Source of the DNA: Polytrichum commune
Lineage: Eukaryota; Streptophyta; Polytrichopsida; Polytrichales; Polytrichaceae
NCBI GenBank assembly: GCA_950295325.1
Contig: OX485809.1
Coordinates: 15,254,001 to 15,318,000, forward strand
Direction of reading: 5' to 3'
DNA length: 64,000 nucleotides
Shown here: piece after piece, positions 20,984-30,475 of the stretch
How positions within the stretch are numbered: position 1 is the stretch's first letter
Layout of the letters: each line of letters opens with the position of its first letter
Made by a program: the position numbers and the translations under genes
Notes under the pieces: model-generated
Databases searched by the model: none
What the model saw: the letters and a program-made list of their open reading frames with translations, nothing else
Told to the model about the DNA's origin: nothing

Positions 20984-21222
20984 TAGTATCCACGGGTGAA
21001 CTCCCGTGGGTGGGCACCCAATTAATTTTGTGAGCATAAATTAGGGAGCCCCACACCTTGACATTTGTCTAGGGATGTTCAAATTACCACTTTTAATGGC
21101 ATCCTTGATGTGAACTTTCATGTGCATGTTATATTTTGCGAACATGTTCTCTATGTATGGGAGTCTTCCAATGTGCATGGTGGGAACAAATTATTCACGG
21201 GGGTTCACCCGTGGAGTGTAAG
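20984..21222. repeat. Short inverted repeat pair, possible MITE
   Basis: CCACGGGTGAACTCCCGTGG (about 20988) pairs with CACGGGGGTTCACCCGTGG (about 21196). Each half is itself partly palindromic. The 200-bp interior is non-coding. No target duplication was identified. Confidence 0.5.
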
Positions 21223-21262
21223 CACACTCCTTTTCTCTTCATTGATGATATCTTCCATATTA

Positions 21263-22998
21263 CACCCTAACCTTGATAATATCACACTTGTTAATAGAAC
21301 ACCTTGATATTGTCACCTAAAAGTTTGAAACCGATTTCCATAGTGTAAAACTCCCTCGTTATTATCACTATCACCCTTGATAATGTCACTTTTTTTTTTC
21401 AAAATTTGTAGTGTAAGTGTGATAATAACAAGTAACATGGATGAAAAAAGGCCGGATGGACAACAAATTCTATGGATGACGTCGGCATCTTCACCTGCTT
21501 CCGCTTGAATCTTGGGTTCTTGAATCTCATGTGCCGAAGAAGCAACGGTTTCTCTCGTAGATCAACCTCTCGCAGCTCCGCCTGCATCGTATGCATCGTA
21601 TGATGAGACAGGTTTGTATTATAGAGCCTCTCCTTATAAGACTTTGAATATTGGGAAGGCGAAAGGAAATAAGAAAAAGAAGGACCGTGTGACATTGGGG
21701 CTTTGCACTAATATCTCAAGGAAGGAGCAATTGAAGCTTGTTTTCATTCACAAAGCAGCGCGTCCCAGATGCTTTCCTCGGAATTTTGATCCAAATAGGA
21801 TAGTACACTATAATTCTAACAATTCAGCCTAGATGAATGGTGATGTTTTTACACATTGGGTGAAGAGTGAGAACCGAAGAATGGCATTGAAAGACAGAAA
21901 GATTTGCATTATTATGGATAATGCAAGAAGCCATGATATTCATGGTGAGGTCAAGAAAGTTATAGATGGGTTTCATGCTTTTGTACTCTCCCATATCACT
22001 ATCTTGTTCCTTCCACCAAATGTGACTTCAGTTGTTCAGCCTTTGGATCAAGGAGTGATTGCAGCATTCAAAATGTGCTATAAGCGCAAGCTTGTTGCTT
22101 GGACTTTGCAACAAATTGATAACAACTCAAATGAAGATTTGGGGAAATTGAATGTTGATGTATTTCAAGCTATGCTATGGTGTGTGGCGGCATGGCATGA
22201 ATTAGATGATCAAACCATTAGAAATTGTTGGAGAAAGTCCGCCATATTGCCTGCAGAGTGGAATGCAGATATAAACAATCTTGATGAACGTATGAAGTCC
22301 AAAATGGAGGAAGCAACTTTGGAATTGGGTAGACTCATCGCCGCATTAAATTTGGGTTTGGATGTTGAAGGCAAGCCTGTAGAAAAGCTTTGTCCTTTGG
22401 AGTACATAAACATGGAAGGTGAAGATGATTTTGAGGTGGAATTTTCTACTGAGGAGCTTGTGCAATTAGTGCAAGATGGCGAACAGGTTCTTGATTCCAT
22501 GGAAGTGGACCCATTGATTGTTGATAGCAGTGATGATGACTCTAAAGTAGTGAAGCTAAGCGATGCACAAAAATATGCTAAAGATGTTTTGAATTTTATG
22601 GCTAGCCAAGGTTCTCAGATTTTCAGCACTCATGAGTAGTTAGAAATGGAAAAAATCCATGACAAACTCATTAGAATTGGTGTTGCACATTTAACATCAA
22701 CAAAACAATGTGACATTAGAAGCTTCTTTGTCTCTAGTGAGAGGTCTTTACCTAATCTCAATGACACATTATGATGTGCTCTTGTTGTTATTCACAATTT
22801 TGAATTAGATTTTACATTGGTAAACATTGAAGTCTCGTTTTTTTTTTTAAAAAAAATTGTAATTATATTTTGATTTTCTACATATATTTTGATAATATCA
22901 CATTATGCACAAAATGTGACATTATCAAGTATGTCACACCTTGTTTATATCACACTTTTTGGTGAAACGGAGGGTGTGACATTATCAAGGTTAGGGTG
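21263..22998 (+). mobile_element. pogo/Tigger-like (Tc1/mariner) DNA transposon
   Basis: Terminal inverted repeats CACCCTAACCTTGATAAT (21263) and its inverse (ending 22998) bound the element. They are flanked by TA on both sides (21261-21262 and 22999-23000), the standard Tc1/mariner target duplication. Subterminal copies of GATAATATCACA/TGTGACATTATC recur at both ends (about 21290-21390 and 22890-22985). The element is 1.74 kb and contains a damaged DDE transposase. The ends look intact, so it could be cross-mobilised if a related transposase were supplied by the host genome (inference). Confidence 0.88.
21602..22771 (+). pseudogene. Tigger/pogo DDE transposase, truncated with two TAG stops
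   Basis: The frame opens with DETGLYYRASP, the first catalytic Asp segment. It continues through VFIHKAARPRCF, meets TAG at 21830-21832 (between NSA and MNGDVF, where the family normally has Trp), and resumes with CIIMDNARSH (second Asp) and FLPPNVTSVVQPLDQGVI (third acidic position, D). This is a DDD-type catalytic core of the pogo branch. A second TAG at 22637-22639 is followed in frame by LEMEKIHDKLIRIG up to TGA at about 22771. The N-terminal helix-turn-helix DNA-binding domains are missing; sequence just upstream (21440-21600) is unrelated, suggesting an internal deletion or rearrangement. Not functional as read. Confidence 0.85.
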
Positions 22999-23000
22999 TA

Positions 23001-25240
23001 CAATTGATTTTTTGCATGGTTTTATAATTATGTGTGGGTGTAGCGGAATGCTTGAGTTGTATTTTAAGAATCCTCAACAGGTATTCTCTCATACCAACTA
23101 GCCATCATTACGTTCCCATCACATTCCCTACATTAAATTGAGCATACCAATTGGCTCATTTTAGTTGATAAGGCCATACCTACTTATAGATACAAATTCT
23201 CATTTTCTCGCGTGCACACACACATATATATACACACACACATATACATATACATTTTTTGTGTTTGTGCATGTGCACCTTATGTGTATTAGAATTCTTT
23301 ACTAATAGTTCACTATGTCCTTTATTTTTGGATCTTTAATTTTGAATTTTACATGGGTTATCTTACTTGATGACTTTCAGATACCTCATACTTTGTTTGC
23401 ATGTCATTTGGGAAATTTTGAAAGTGCAACCCCAAGATACAAACCCAATGCATCCCATGTTTCGTAAACATACATCACATGTGAGGGAATCTTTGCATTG
23501 CTCTGTTGGGTTTCACATTGCAATTCATGAACACTTTTGGATTGTGTTTCTTCATGACTGTTTCTTGCCCTCGCAAATTTAATTGCCCAATGAAGGGAAA
23601 TACATCAATTGTCAACTGCATTTGCACCAAAAAACAAGAACTTATGAACACCTCATTGCATCTCCAAAAGTAATTAGCCAAAAGAAGGAGCCTTGGGACT
23701 CCTTCACTACCATGTATGGTATACGGGTGTTATGCAATTATTTTCTTAATCAAACACCCTATAGTAGAACCACCTATTCCTTTTCAGGACCACATCGGGA
23801 ATCTGTAGGGTGTCATATTTCAATCAAGCTAGGACCAATTTCGGTAATTTCTTTTCATGAGTGGTTAAAATAAGTCTCCATGTTTCATTATTTCTAAGGG
23901 TTAGTTTTCATGTAGGCTGCTTCTTCCACTTATATCTAGTGGGTGAAGCAACCTACATGAAAACTAACCTTAAGTCTCCAACTTCGGTTATGGATCATTA
24001 GGGAATCGATAGTGCCTTAACACATGTCCCCAATTTTGAGTGCTAAAGTTAGGAGGAATTCGTCTCAAAATGAGCTGTTATGGCAAGCTCTAGACATTGG
24101 TAATGTGTTTGGGACAAACTTTTGGCTTCAAGAATTCATAATAATTTCAATTTAACGAATAAAATTATTGAAAAATTTGCAATCCTCTTGATTTCTATCT
24201 TCCAACACAGGAAAAGATTACAATGTCATGTACTTCTCCAAATTTGGCACAAAATCCCTTCAGTTATCGGTTATGGTTACCTCTGCTCTATATTTGATTG
24301 GTGTGTGATTAGGTGAGGATCAAAGAACAAACACCATATGTAAAGACACCTTCAAATTTTAATAACTACTCCAAACTTCAATAGTGAACACAATTGGGAA
24401 CACCTATGTATTCAATTAAGGAAACAACACACATGCACTTCCAATCACAATAACTAATTCATGTGAGATATGGATTTCAATCCGATATTTGCTGATGCTT
24501 CATTGTACATTTCCTAATGCAACGCAGGTTTTCTTGTGTAGATCTAATCGGTAGAAGTTGGAGTACATGGTAAATGAACCAAATAACAGCCACATATCCA
24601 CAAGATCCCTCTATGCTCATAACATGGCATTCCAAAAGTACCTTTGCAACAACAGTTTCATATCATGCATTTGCCACACTATCGATGTGAATCAGAAGTT
24701 TAGAACTTACAAATTGCACCCAGTCCCTGTTGTGATGGTGAACATTGGAAGCCTTTGTTCAGAGGGTGATATTCATGTCAGATGTAACAATGCTGTGATT
24801 AGCCTTCATTCTGTCGGATGAAGCCAATTCGAACCAGCCTCACTGAAATGATTTATGATGTCCCTTATTGCACTGAAGTGGAGCTCTTGCCAACTATCAG
24901 GACACTATTGCTCATGCTGCAAATAAATTCTTCTCCATTATCATGCCCAACTAGCCCTTGGAAGACTTGGATTTGGCACAACTTATTACAAAACCACCAT
25001 AAATACTGCCCCTTTTTTTCACGTATGATAGTCACATACACTCTGCCTGTGATGCACCAATAAAAAACTTCACCAGGGATAAAGGCGGCGCCTCACACTA
25101 TTTATACAATGGATGCAACCACACATCCTGGGAGACACTTTAAAAGCTGGGTAGCCTACCTACAAAGCCATTCTCCGCATTCTACACTTGAAAAGTTGTA
25201 AGAGAACAGAAGTCCTCAAGAGGACAAAATTGAGGCATAG
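23001..25240. other. Intergenic / 3' flank, with CA/TA microsatellite and hairpin
   Basis: A (CA/TA)n tract lies at about 23211-23255. Open frames at 24558-24821 and 24818-25063 look weakly protein-like but match nothing I recognise. The last few hundred bases before 25240 should include the 3' UTR of the minus-strand RING gene. Confidence 0.4.
23896..23974. repeat. Compact hairpin, arms about 35 bp
   Basis: GGTTAGTTTTCATGTAGGCT in the left arm pairs with its inverse in the right arm (CTACATGAAAACTAACC), leaving a loop of about 8 bases. It is small enough for a foldback MITE or a miRNA-type precursor, but no evidence of expression can be read from sequence. Confidence 0.7.
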
Positions 25241-28200
25241 CTAGCCTTGGCCTTCTCTGTTCTCCTGGTTGGAGGTGGTGTTTCTTTGCAACGAAATCCG
25301 ACAGATAGGGCAGCTAGAGTGGCTTAAAAACCACTCATCAATGCAGTTTACATGGAACACGTGTCTACACACAGGGATGCGACGGAGCAGCTGCGGGACA
25401 CTGTAATCCACCAGGCAAATTGGACACCTGCAGTGGGAACAGGAAGGAGAATCAGTTCTTCATAGATCCACAGATGGACCAGAGCTTGTAAGTAACTGAA
25501 TTAAATTTATTGAATTTATTGAATGAAAAAAATAAAGAATTAAAAAATCTGTCAAGCCAAATATCCAAGAAATGGAGCAGTAGTCGCACATGAGATGAGT
25601 GTGTGACATAGTTGATTAAAACAGGACACACCACTGGTATTTTTCATGGCTTAAATGCTAGGCTTCGAGGACTTGTCATGTATAAAGTGTGACAACTCGG
25701 ATCACACATTGCTTCAAGTACTATGGTGGATGTAGCTAGTTGACATTGCAACAGGGAGCAACCCAAATCCGGCCTGGTAAGCCTCAAAAGTTGGGATTTA
25801 TCATGTATATTGAGTCACTGTGTACGTGATCTATTCATTTCCACACTTTTGAAGCTAATTAGGTTCGATTTTCTAACCGATATAATTAGGATCATGCTCT
25901 CTAAACAGGCTTGAAAAAAACAAAAATTGAACTTTTTTAACATTTTTTAAACAAAAAAGCATGAACAGGTATTTTGTACTCTGGGTCGAAATAGGGACAC
26001 CTACCTTTATGACATCGGCCACAGTCCAATTCCCATAGCAAGGATTAGTCCTAAAGCTTAACCTTAAAACATAAATATATGGATAACCCTAAGATATGGG
26101 TGGCTTTGAAACCTGGTATCCTGAAGCAATCCCTCTCGGTAAGATAGCAGAGGATATGTGCTCACAATCCCTCTATCCATGCCACTCCTGTCCAGCACAA
26201 CCTGGAAGCACATGGCACTCAAAAAGTAGTGAATAGAAATATCCAACATGACTAGCAGTGTTAATAGTGGAATTCAATAGCATAAGTGTAGTCTTGGTTT
26301 TTGAAGTGAACATTCGCAAGAGCAAAGTATGTCAGTGTACCTCACTACCCTGAGTTGCCTCAAAGTCAAGTGGATGATCCCCTGTGCGTTCACCCCCACA
26401 TGTCATGTACCGTCTGGAAACAAGCAGTATGGCTAATACGACCAGGGAGGAGCAAATGGCCACCAATAGAATAACCCAGATCTTGAGTCCATTTACACGA
26501 CCACCTGGCAGTGCAAGAACACTTTATTAATACACATCTCAACATAAACATCGACTGCGTGAGTGATGGGTGTCAAGTTACCTCTCTTAGACACAAGGAT
26601 CTGTTTGTTACTTCAAGAAATATGAAAGAACTGGAGGACATAACAACACTCTCCTCTGGAAATGCTAAAAATATTTAAGTGGGACACTAGTGGCAGGAAG
26701 ATTTTGATGGAGATTCACTTACAAACTGCAAATCTAGAGATATGCCACAAATTCTGAGTGGGACTATAGTGACAGGAAGACCTCATTAAAGGTTAATCTA
26801 TCAATGATCAGTAATACAAACTGCAAATCTCCAGATCTGCTACAAATGCTAACAGGACAATATTGACAGGAAGACTTCAATGGAAGTTAACCCTACCAAT
26901 AATCAGTAATTCGAACTGCAGATCTCCTTGCACAGGATAATCCACATTGAACAAGGCCAATATCAGCTCCCCATCCGCGAGCGAGTCCGTATTGACATCA
27001 TAAGTATCTGACGCAGTGGCATTTAGAGATGTGTCGGTGAACTTGAGGTGGTTGTCTGTGAGTGTGGGGTAACCATTCTGCTTAGCCAGGAGAATTCCAT
27101 GACCCCCTGTGTGTACAAACTTCACAGACACGTTCTTCATGTTTGGCACATCACTGTTTCGAACGCTGAAGTAAGCCCAGTCACCTGGATGTAGCAGACC
27201 AGAGAACGAATTTCGAGGCTTTGCCGGCGAAAGTGCTGCCACAGTCAAAAAAACAACGCCAATAATTTTTAGAGCTATTTATAAGTTCCATCTGAAGCTG
27301 AAACAGATATGCACACAGAATCTTCAAGAAGAGAGGCCCCAGAAAAGAGATACAAGGGTGCTACCCTATGTTTGCCTTTAACGTCCAGACTAAGTCTACA
27401 AATTGCAGAACTATATAGCCATTAGAGTCATCCTTCTGGTCGGAGTTGGTTGTTTTGCATACAAAACCTGTTTGGTAGGTTATTGGTGCATTGCTTGGAG
27501 GTAGTATGGGAAAGAACATTCTGTATCGGTCATTGAGGGTCAAACTCATTATGGCATGCCAAGAGGTGTCAAAATGAGCTTGGCCTTCGATGAACTCAAA
27601 TAGGTTGCTCTTCGTTCAAATTCAAACACTACCTCCGACACGCACCACAAGTGGAAAGAACTTATTAATATTGTGGAACATCACAGGGGATGGACTCCTG
27701 ACAAAAAGTGACATTGAATTAAAGGATAACTCTAGTAATCCTAGATTTTTAGTACTGAGTCATTATTTTGTGAGAAGATCACAAATGCTGGAAACAGCAC
27801 CACAGTTGTTCCTAGTTGAGAGACTCACATCCTTCACAGTAGCTTCCTCCAAAGCCAGACTCACAACTACAGTTGCCATCTTCAGTGCATTTCCCATTAG
27901 GGTAAGAGCAATTCAAGGGGCACAATGCCACAGTCTTGAGGCTGGAGGGAGCAATAGATATAGAGAGATTGAAGTATGTATCCTCCTCCATGCAAGCATC
28001 ATTATTGTACACTCCAATGAAGTAATAGCCCCACCCAGTGCCGTAAATGTGATGGTGGCTGAGGCGATTCTGGAAACTTGTCACGTCTGCATACTTGTAG
28101 AAATCAATTTCTATAGGAAGATCGCCATCTCCTTTTGGCTTTAGGTAAAGAACAGGATCACCAAAGGACCTCGACATCTCCACCAATATGCGACTGTCAG

Positions 28201-29596
28201 GCTCGTCAACCTGAGAGACAATTTTCCCATTTATGAGTGTTTACATATTTGTCAAAAGGCGTCGTCAACCGCCTATGATGCCGTCACCACAATTTGCACA
28301 ATAGAATTTCTTCATGGTCTGGTGCCAATCGCACATCACAAGCAAAATAGAACTCGGCCTGATAGAACAGAAATGCAAAGAATGAAAAGGTGACTGACTT
28401 AATAATATTACCTTGAACTTGAAATACTTCCATTCCCCATAGCCAAGAGATATTTGATCGTGGACAAAGTAAAGTGCATGTCCTTGTCCTGGATTACCAG
28501 TTATAGATAAAACTTCCTCATCTGAGCAGGACAGAGATTAAGGTTAGGAAAGGGTAGTAAACCATTGAAACTGTAGATTCGTGACCCATAAAATCACAAT
28601 TTACATCAATTTTAGATTGCAGCTACCAAAATTAACTTGAATGAAACAACACATATTACCTCACATAAAAACATAAAAATAAAAGGAATCAGTAAGTGAC
28701 TTACGTATGTCGCAGGATCCATATGCAATGTCCCTGATGCATCGGCACGTGTTTGAGCTGACACATGGACCCGTGTCTGGATCACTGCAGCTCGGCTGGC
28801 ACCCATAAGTGTCTGCACCCAGAGCATTCATACAAACACAACCCCTTATAAAACACTTCTGGGGAAGTTTTCAAAATACCAGATAAGTTGGAGAAAACGT
28901 AGAGTTTGCAATTGAAACTAGTAGACAGGACATGCGAAAGGGTAACTTTGAAGAATTTCAAGGAAGTGTACCAGAGCACCATGCTTTGAGGAGGAACACT
29001 AAAGGGCCTCCTGTGCTGTAAACACTTGCATAAATGTCTGGTGCGGAGTCCTCACTCACGGCTAACGTGACGTTTAATAATGCGTAAGATTTGCCATCGA
29101 TAGAGTCTGCCACAGAAAAGGAGGGAGAAATTCAGCATTGCTACACTTTGCAGTAATATATGTTTCAATTTCGGCAATCGATTCCTCCCGAATATACAAA
29201 TACGTTTGTAAGAGAAGTTTTGCAGACAACACCAAATGCACAACAACATTCATGTGTTGTCGAATAGAAAATGTGGTCGAATTGGATGCTCACCACTGGA
29301 CACTGCCACGGTACCGTTGCTGATGGTGAAACTATCGTCATCAAAGACTGGCACAATTCCCTGCGTGTTAACTAGAAGTGCCCAGCTCGGCACTGTGCTG
29401 TTGGTGTCCGGGATTCGAACTTCCACAGTCAGAAAGGATGCGTTTGAATAATAACAGTAGCTAGGGTCGAGCTTGTAATGGTTGTAACCTCGGTCCCCAA
29501 TCTGGTCTTTTAGACAAGCATTATTCGCGTCCAACGTGCTTCTGACTGTAGCAGTGTTCACTAGGAGCGTCCCGAAGCACCCTGACCCCAGGAAAC
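25241..29596 (-). CDS. EGF-like / transmembrane / RING-H2 protein, probable E3 ligase
   Basis: Nine exons with consistent phases: 29596-29294, 29106-28972, 28812-28705, 28521-28412, 28210-27829, 27235-26897, 26504-26341, 26201-26113, 25427-25241 (stop TAG 25243-25241). They give about 604 residues without the missing first exon. Order: N-terminal ectodomain with NxS/T sites; EGF-like module 1 (CQPSCSDPDTGPC, then CRC and C; exon 3); a beta-rich stretch; EGF-like module 2 (CPLNCSYPNGKC then CSCESGFGGSYC; exon 5); a second ectodomain region (exon 6); a transmembrane helix (WVILLVAICSSLVVLAILLV) in exon 7; a cytosolic linker; a C-terminal RING-H2 finger (CPICLVDY, CRHVFHVNCIDEW, CPIC). All eight zinc ligands are present in C3H2C3 order. 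The RING implies ubiquitin transfer from an E2; the EGF modules suggest an extracellular or luminal ligand. The signal-peptide exon lies upstream of 29596 and was not found. Confidence 0.85.
27423..27734. mobile_element. Diverged member of the palindrome/foldback MITE family, intronic
   Basis: This lies inside the intron between 27828 and 27236 of the RING gene. It starts TAGAGTCATCCTT and ends TTAAAGGATAACTCTA, and shares GGAGTTGGTTGTTTTGCAT and TCATTATGGCATGCCAAGAG with the palindrome at 11980-12319. Here the arms have diverged, so the fold would be weaker. Confidence 0.75.
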
Positions 29597-30095: not shown

Positions 30096-30475
30096 AACAA
30101 CCCAAGGTCGATTTCCTGACCACCATTTCCACATTGTCGATATCCTCGGTCACTTTCTCGAGGCCGGGACCAGGAGACCTCCCAACTCAACGCACAAACA
30201 ACAACAACAACAACAATTCCCGCCATGGCACACTGCACGAACCCTTGGACTTCCTCCCAAGAAAGAAAAAACAAGAAGCTAAGGTGCGAGCCTCGATTCC
30301 CTAACCACCACTTCCAAATTATTGACATCCTTTCACTTTTCCCGAGACCCCGGACCACGAGAACTCGCAACTCAACACATCTCAAAAAAACATTTCTCGC
30401 AACCCGGGGAAGGGAGGGGAGGGGAAACTCACAGAAAAACAACAAGCTGAGGGCGAGGCTCGATTTCATAACCAA
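30095..30475. repeat. Diverged tandem repeat upstream of the RING gene
   Basis: A segment with GGTCGATTTCCTGACCACCA ... TCTCGAGGCCGGGACCA ... CAACTCAACGCACA (about 30104-30195) recurs at about 30284-30380, and its first part again at about 30445-30475, with a period of about 180 bp. ORFs across it are not credible. It sits where the RING gene promoter or 5' UTR would be. Confidence 0.65.

Follow-up and report, generated by a model that had tools for sequence, protein, structure and literature searches.

The window, by which we mean the whole 64,000-nucleotide stretch of Polytrichum commune DNA analyzed here, lies on a 42-Mb contig of a 408-Mb genome and contains a gene on the minus strand with ten predicted exons (30469 to 25241). 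All exon borders are GT-AG, and joined together the exons stay open and encode 617 residues (Table 1). In order, the protein holds a signal peptide, beta-rich domain 1, EGF-like module 1, beta-rich domain 2, EGF-like module 2, beta-rich domain 3, one transmembrane (TM) helix, a GLD-like stretch and a RING-H2 finger. The first-pass annotation had claimed nine exons giving the order EGF-like, EGF-like, transmembrane, RING-H2. These exons (2 to 10, 29596 to 25241) indeed join in phase, yielding about 604 residues, and the four parts are present; the three beta-rich domains, which form most of the ectodomain, went unnamed. The label 'beta-rich' is our reading of the sequence together with a weak PPC match described below.

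Table 1. Predicted exons of the window gene, with E values of the matches in its two paralogues (L003 and L004).
Feature	Position in window	Strand	Content	Borders and phases	Paralogue E values
Exon 1 (predicted)	30433..30469	-	Start codon and signal peptide MKSSLALSLLFFC...	Ends in phase 1 at donor GTGAGT	
Exon 2	29294..29596	-	First part of beta-rich domain 1	GT-AG; phases 1-1	1.6e-13, 1.5e-13 (L003, L004)
Exon 3	28972..29106	-	End of beta-rich domain 1	Phases 1-1	5.5e-6, 6.0e-6 (L003, L004)
Exon 4	28705..28812	-	EGF-like module 1, cysteines 28801-28712	Symmetric 1-1	9.5e-15, 3.2e-15
Exon 5	28412..28521	-	Start of beta-rich domain 2		1.3e-6, 5.9e-6
Exon 6	27829..28210	-	Remainder of beta-rich domain 2 and EGF-like module 2 (cysteines 27922-27836)		3.3e-48, 1.1e-55
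Exon 7	26897..27235	-	Beta-rich domain 3		4.1e-43, 9.4e-40 (L003, L004)
Exon 8	26341..26504	-	TM helix, residues 482-500, about 26475-26419; RR on cytosolic side		2.4e-8, 3.0e-11
Exon 9	26113..26201	-	GLD-like stretch GMDRGIVSTYPLLSY	Phases 0-2	6.3e-7, 3.6e-5
Exon 10	25241..25427	-	RING-H2 (25426-25301) and stop; 19-residue tail		

The signal-peptide exon that was still to be found upstream of these nine is likely exon 1. Four combinations of an ATG and a donor were candidates, and exon 1 was picked for its donor and its short signal peptide; the remaining three have the donor GTGCGT in common. As modeled, it ends in the phase 1 required by exon 2 and is the likeliest of the four. Both paralogues likewise begin with a signal-like first exon ending in phase 1, the hydrophobic part of the L003 exon lying about 40 residues in. 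Two further features were seen around the gene. Intron 1 holds a 31-base direct repeat (84%, window 30164-30194 and 30349-30379) adjoining the signal-peptide exon, and a DDE_1 transposase match (PF03184, 79 bits) occupies a 268-residue open frame at window 21833-22639 (plus strand), about 2.6 kb beyond where the RING gene stops.

Topology prediction, proposed earlier as a check, returned a signal peptide and a single helix: hydropathy gives one strong helix (peak 3.25) preceded by 481 residues, and a signal-peptide peak at 7. Ahead of the helix there are nine N-glycosylation sequons and 18 cysteines, and behind it a single sequon. The predicted layout is therefore type I, with an extracellular or luminal ectodomain and a cytosolic RING.

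The RING-H2 assignment proved to be beyond doubt, Pfam zf-RING_2 scoring 49 bits against a cut-off of 27.3. Its spacing is CX2CX15CX1HX2HX2CX10CX2C, with IPVC at the third ligand and a Trp after the sixth. PxC is found in all three family genes (IPVC in the window gene, IPAC and LPDC in the others). At the GLD position the window gene reads GMD, L003 SLD and L004 PPN, in each case followed by a conserved VSxxPLLxY stretch. The genes also differ behind the RING, where the window copy ends after 19 residues but its paralogues continue for 115 and 101. The last exon of L003 and L004 encodes a Ser-rich tail with DYQPLL, a sequence that fits both YxxPhi and [DE]xxxL[LI], which we take to be adaptor or post-Golgi sorting motifs. 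DYQPLL is absent from the window copy, and a downstream extension of its tail was not found either (no YQP, DYxPL or QPLL in 21001-25300, minus strand). With its short tail lacking this motif, the window copy may traffic differently from its paralogues.

As for the ectodomain, both EGF-like modules show a six-cysteine pattern that is kept in all three family genes. The EGF profile check put forward in the first-pass annotation came out less uniformly: both modules show the six cysteines, but module 2 matches several weak EGF models, all below the Pfam cut-offs (EGF_TEN at E 0.0046), and module 1 matches no Pfam EGF model. By profile comparison module 1 does resemble module 2 (hhalign E 9e-5). 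Elsewhere in the genome, five stretches in all exceed the EGF_2 cut-off, including C5:26661823 and two close together at C2:26010467-26010928. Domain 2 looks PPC-like on its sequence: in the paralogues it matches PPC (PF04151) over nearly the whole length at E 0.021 and 0.035 (16.1 and 15.4 bits, below the cut-off of 25.9), while the same Pfam search gave no PPC match in the window copy. Domains 2 and 3 are probably related to each other, judging from their profiles (hhalign E 1.2e-4, probability 55%); comparing domain 1 with domain 3 gave no match. Searches of the PDB with three ectodomain profiles returned nothing below E 0.09, and an NCBIfam search of the proteins returned weak RING matches only. 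Relatives of domain 2 plus EGF-like module 2 were also sought in prokaryotes and viruses, where 102 viral and 123 genome stretches fitted the patterns and none was confirmed, by scans of a kind that misses distant relatives.

A genome search with exon 7 leads to three places, namely the window gene, L003 and L004. A query made of exon 6 and most of exon 5 gives five matches. The window gene accounts for two of them and each paralogue for one, and the fifth, at E 3.8 with stops, we take as chance. The family thus comprises three loci in this genome as a lower bound, and all comparisons come from this one genome. In L003 and L004 every exon from 2 to 10 is matched in the same order, the RING at E 5e-22 (L003) and 5e-25 (L004). 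The three loci lie on three contigs, with exons 2 to 10 spanning 4356, 5354 and 4471 bases. Exon 4 (108 nt), exon 5 (110 nt) and exon 7 (339 nt) have the same length in all three genes. The intron phases of the window gene and L004 are 1,1,1,1,0,1,1,0,2, and those of L003 are identical from exon 2 on. Identity of the paralogues to the window gene ranges by region from 31% (domain 1) to 58% (EGF-like module 1 against L003). Synonymous change per site exceeds replacement change in 24 of 24 comparisons of a region between two genes, in 12 of which the synonymous value is too high to correct.

Since two sister genes keep both order and phases, the gene design is real rather than a chance arrangement. 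Moreover, co-linear paralogues with identical phases, together with the synonymous excess, indicate a single gene, maintained under constraint, that includes both the EGF-like and the RING parts. The first-pass annotation had proposed a receptor-shaped RING-H2 protein with EGF-like modules, and had named the lack of any homologue keeping both parts together as evidence against it; two paralogues keep both, which supports the proposal. It might be argued that our model joins two neighboring genes, one for a secreted EGF-like protein and the other for a TM-RING protein, given that the ectodomain exons can be told apart from the TM-GLD-RING exons and that the latter occur at two other loci (L022 and L023, see below) with no ectodomain detected. 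However, three loci, each on a contig of its own, show this order with these phases, and we regard such a mis-joining as very improbable. A decaying or altered state of the window copy, its tail cut short and its beta-rich domain 1 the most diverged, deserves somewhat more attention, though we still consider it rather unlikely. The 19-residue tail agrees with it, as does the divergence of its domain 1, which shares 31% identity with that of either paralogue, while the paralogues share 46% with each other. Nonetheless, its ten exons are open with GT-AG borders, the RING ligands and EGF cysteines are intact, and all of its regions show more synonymous than replacement change.

The helix-GLD-RING part has 30 matches in the genome, six of them in exons of the window gene and its paralogues. 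Fourteen of the 24 others were compared: 12 as ATL rows of a tree, and two (L015 and L016) replaced by longer stretches around the same sites (L022 and L023); ten were left out. All 14 compared loci carry PxC at 15 residues. In 11 of the 12 ATL rows at least 100 residues ahead of the RING lie in one open frame, as expected of single-exon genes. At the two longer stretches (C6:30858899 and C1:15273522) the RING occupies its own exon, starting one base before the first-cysteine codon, and here the helix exon ends in phase 0 and the GLD-like exon in phase 2; all of this is as in the window gene. The GLD-like exon is 89 bases long in the window gene, 95 in L003 and L004, and 95 and 89 at these two cassette loci. 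The cassettes themselves (L022 7386-8534 and L023 7813-8663) have the arrangement TM-0-GLD-2-RING and continue into long and differing C-terminal tails. No ectodomain was detected within the 9.9-kb stretches, where a diverged one could be missed: the RING match alone is convincing, and the others (E 0.08 or worse) are taken as chance.

A tree of 20 rows and 73 columns was built from the three family genes, the two cassette loci, the 12 ATL rows and three RMR rows. The window gene and its paralogues share one branch at 87/81, which is below the starred level, with the long ATL branch L005 beside it. Family, cassette loci and one long-branched ATL row group together at 93/94, and the RMR rows form their own branch at 97/96. 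With so few columns the grouping is a hint only. Given the intron phases, the gene most likely originated by the addition of extracellular modules, carried for the most part on phase 1-1 exons, to a TM-GLD-RING cassette of several exons that resembles the ATL ligases.

The likeness to ATLs noted in the first-pass annotation is apt for the RING, where PxC, the cysteine and histidine spacing, the Trp after the sixth ligand (also carried by the ATL RINGs of this genome) and the order helix, GLD-like stretch, RING are all shared. It does not extend to the gene as a whole, which differs from typical ATLs by a signal peptide and a total of 481 residues ahead of the helix, its nine introns and a RING in its own exon. 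Whether the protein counts as an ATL depends on the rule applied. In the available text of PMC5133618 the RING signature is the sole requirement, the helix and GLD motif not being needed, and by that rule it does. In the available text of an ATL survey (PMC3161093), the N-terminal region is absent or several tens of residues long, and ATLs have no recognizable domain besides RING-H2, GLD and helix; the 481 residues of the window protein exceed that size.

Another close system is that of the RMR (PA-TM-RING) proteins. According to the portion of PMC5085694 available, these have the same type I layout of signal peptide, luminal part, one helix and cytosolic RING-H2, followed in many by a Ser-rich tail. 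The family could accordingly be read as vacuolar cargo receptors of the RMR/VSR kind, whose luminal modules bind soluble cargo in the Golgi while the RING tail helps sorting rather than tagging for destruction. Besides the similar layout, a PDB search with the window protein points this way: among the best 60 of 82 matches the first plant chain is AtRMR1 (7bvw, 2e-11), aligned over the GLD-like stretch and the RING, followed by EL5 (3e-10). By this measure, with AtRMR1 ahead of EL5, the RING is not plainly nearer to the ATLs. Also in favor are the paralogue tails (115 and 101 residues with DYQPLL) and the ETTPLL found after the RING in two RMR-like genes of this genome (L019 and L020). RING similarity alone does not decide RMR membership, however, as a genome search with the AtRMR1 RING stretch came upon ATL-type PxC loci ahead of the RMR-like ones, which carry an intron within the RING. 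The PA domain (PF02225) is absent from all three family proteins up to E 10, in a search whose HMMER filters drop most very weak matches. In the genome there are 17 separate PA matches, and separate RMR-like genes exist on C5 and C6, where a PA domain and a RING lie close together. The two RMR-like RINGs compared have PC instead of PxC and an intron inside the RING, whereas the window gene has its RING on one unsplit exon. Taking the missing PA domain, PC against PxC, the split RING exon and the separate tree branch together, we reject RMR membership. The window copy, moreover, has no DYQPLL-type tail. A cargo-receptor role is thus unlikely in our judgment, albeit the foremost of the alternatives weighed here.

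The same PDB search, through the RING region only, also lists the ERAD ligases synoviolin/HRD1 and AMFR; the RING of ZNRF3 is among the matches as well. A quality-control ligase of internal membranes, with the ectodomain recognizing misfolded glycoproteins in the lumen of the endoplasmic reticulum for removal, would be compatible with a luminal domain and a cytosolic RING. But HRD1 and AMFR are multi-pass proteins and the window protein has one helix, and the paralogue tails carry motifs presumed to act in post-Golgi sorting. We find this reading improbable, slightly more so than decay of the window copy.

Proteins combining a RING finger with a wall-receptor-type ectodomain have been reported before. 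The accessible text of PMC5133618 mentions one grape ATL with GUB_WAK_bind and one with WAK_assoc, and that of PMC10834447, a survey of 350 genomes, gives a RING finger match in 13.94% of WAK-type receptor-like proteins (WAK-RLPs). The WAK domains of the latter are EGF-like, calcium-binding EGF or GUB_WAK_bind, and the text available does not state which of them pair with a RING. Given these WAK-RLPs, the principle of a RING with a wall-receptor ectodomain is already known (PMC10834447, as available). The window protein shares this combination, but shows no match to GUB_WAK_bind or WAK_assoc, and its beta-rich domains are interleaved with the EGF-like modules. GUB_WAK_bind, presumably a plant wall-receptor domain, exceeds its cut-off in seven stretches of the genome. 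It is found in none of the three family proteins up to E 10 (Pfam), for which reason WAK membership is rejected. In the open-licence RING and EGF literature, as far as its text was available (including PMC10317173 and PMC10834447), no protein with the same domain order is described, and EGF does not occur in the available main text of PMC6118397. The ectodomain and domain order of the window protein look new.

Overall, the protein is probably a type I membrane RING-H2 ubiquitin ligase whose ectodomain would pick the partner that the cytosolic RING ubiquitinates. What we count in favor is the signal peptide with one helix, the co-linear paralogues with exons 4, 5 and 7 of equal length, the synonymous excess, the complete PxC RING-H2 with its Trp, the sequons lying mostly before the helix, the shared cassette phases and the DYQPLL tails. 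Against it we count the window tail without DYQPLL, a comparison that covers three family members of a single genome, beta-rich domains that gave no confident fold match in Pfam or the PDB, AtRMR1 ranking over EL5 in the PDB and the tree support of 87/81 with the long L005 branch alongside. As to how such a ligase might work, the signal peptide and single helix would place all three beta-rich domains, along with both EGF-like modules, on the extracellular or luminal side of the membrane, with the RING facing the cytosol. The ectodomain would then bind a partner, most likely another membrane protein, or else a cell-wall or luminal ligand. Together with an E2, the RING would ubiquitinate the cytosolic tail of the partner or of the ligase itself, and the ubiquitinated protein may be taken into the endosome-vacuole route. 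The ectodomain may also sense a ligand, as suggested in the first-pass annotation.

In animals, ZNRF3 and RNF43 consist of an ectodomain, one helix and a RING that turns over a receptor. The window protein would work like these, but its ectodomain is a different one and they are animal proteins, so that no membership is claimed. A more speculative extension, to which we give little weight as yet, is that the family is a plant counterpart of ligand-gated receptor ligases: an extracellular ligand on the EGF-like and beta-rich modules would switch the RING on or off and thereby set the surface level of a partner receptor. The family would then have been assembled by exon shuffling, in which extracellular exons of phase 1-1 were added to an ATL-like cassette.

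Receptor kinases are the main means by which plants perceive their surroundings. In a membrane ligase that has a large ectodomain of its own, sensing would be coupled directly to protein removal, and proteins could be tagged for removal according to what the ectodomain binds. With three loci in this genome (a lower bound), the family is small enough for all its members to be knocked out, provided that the species or one of its relatives is transformable.
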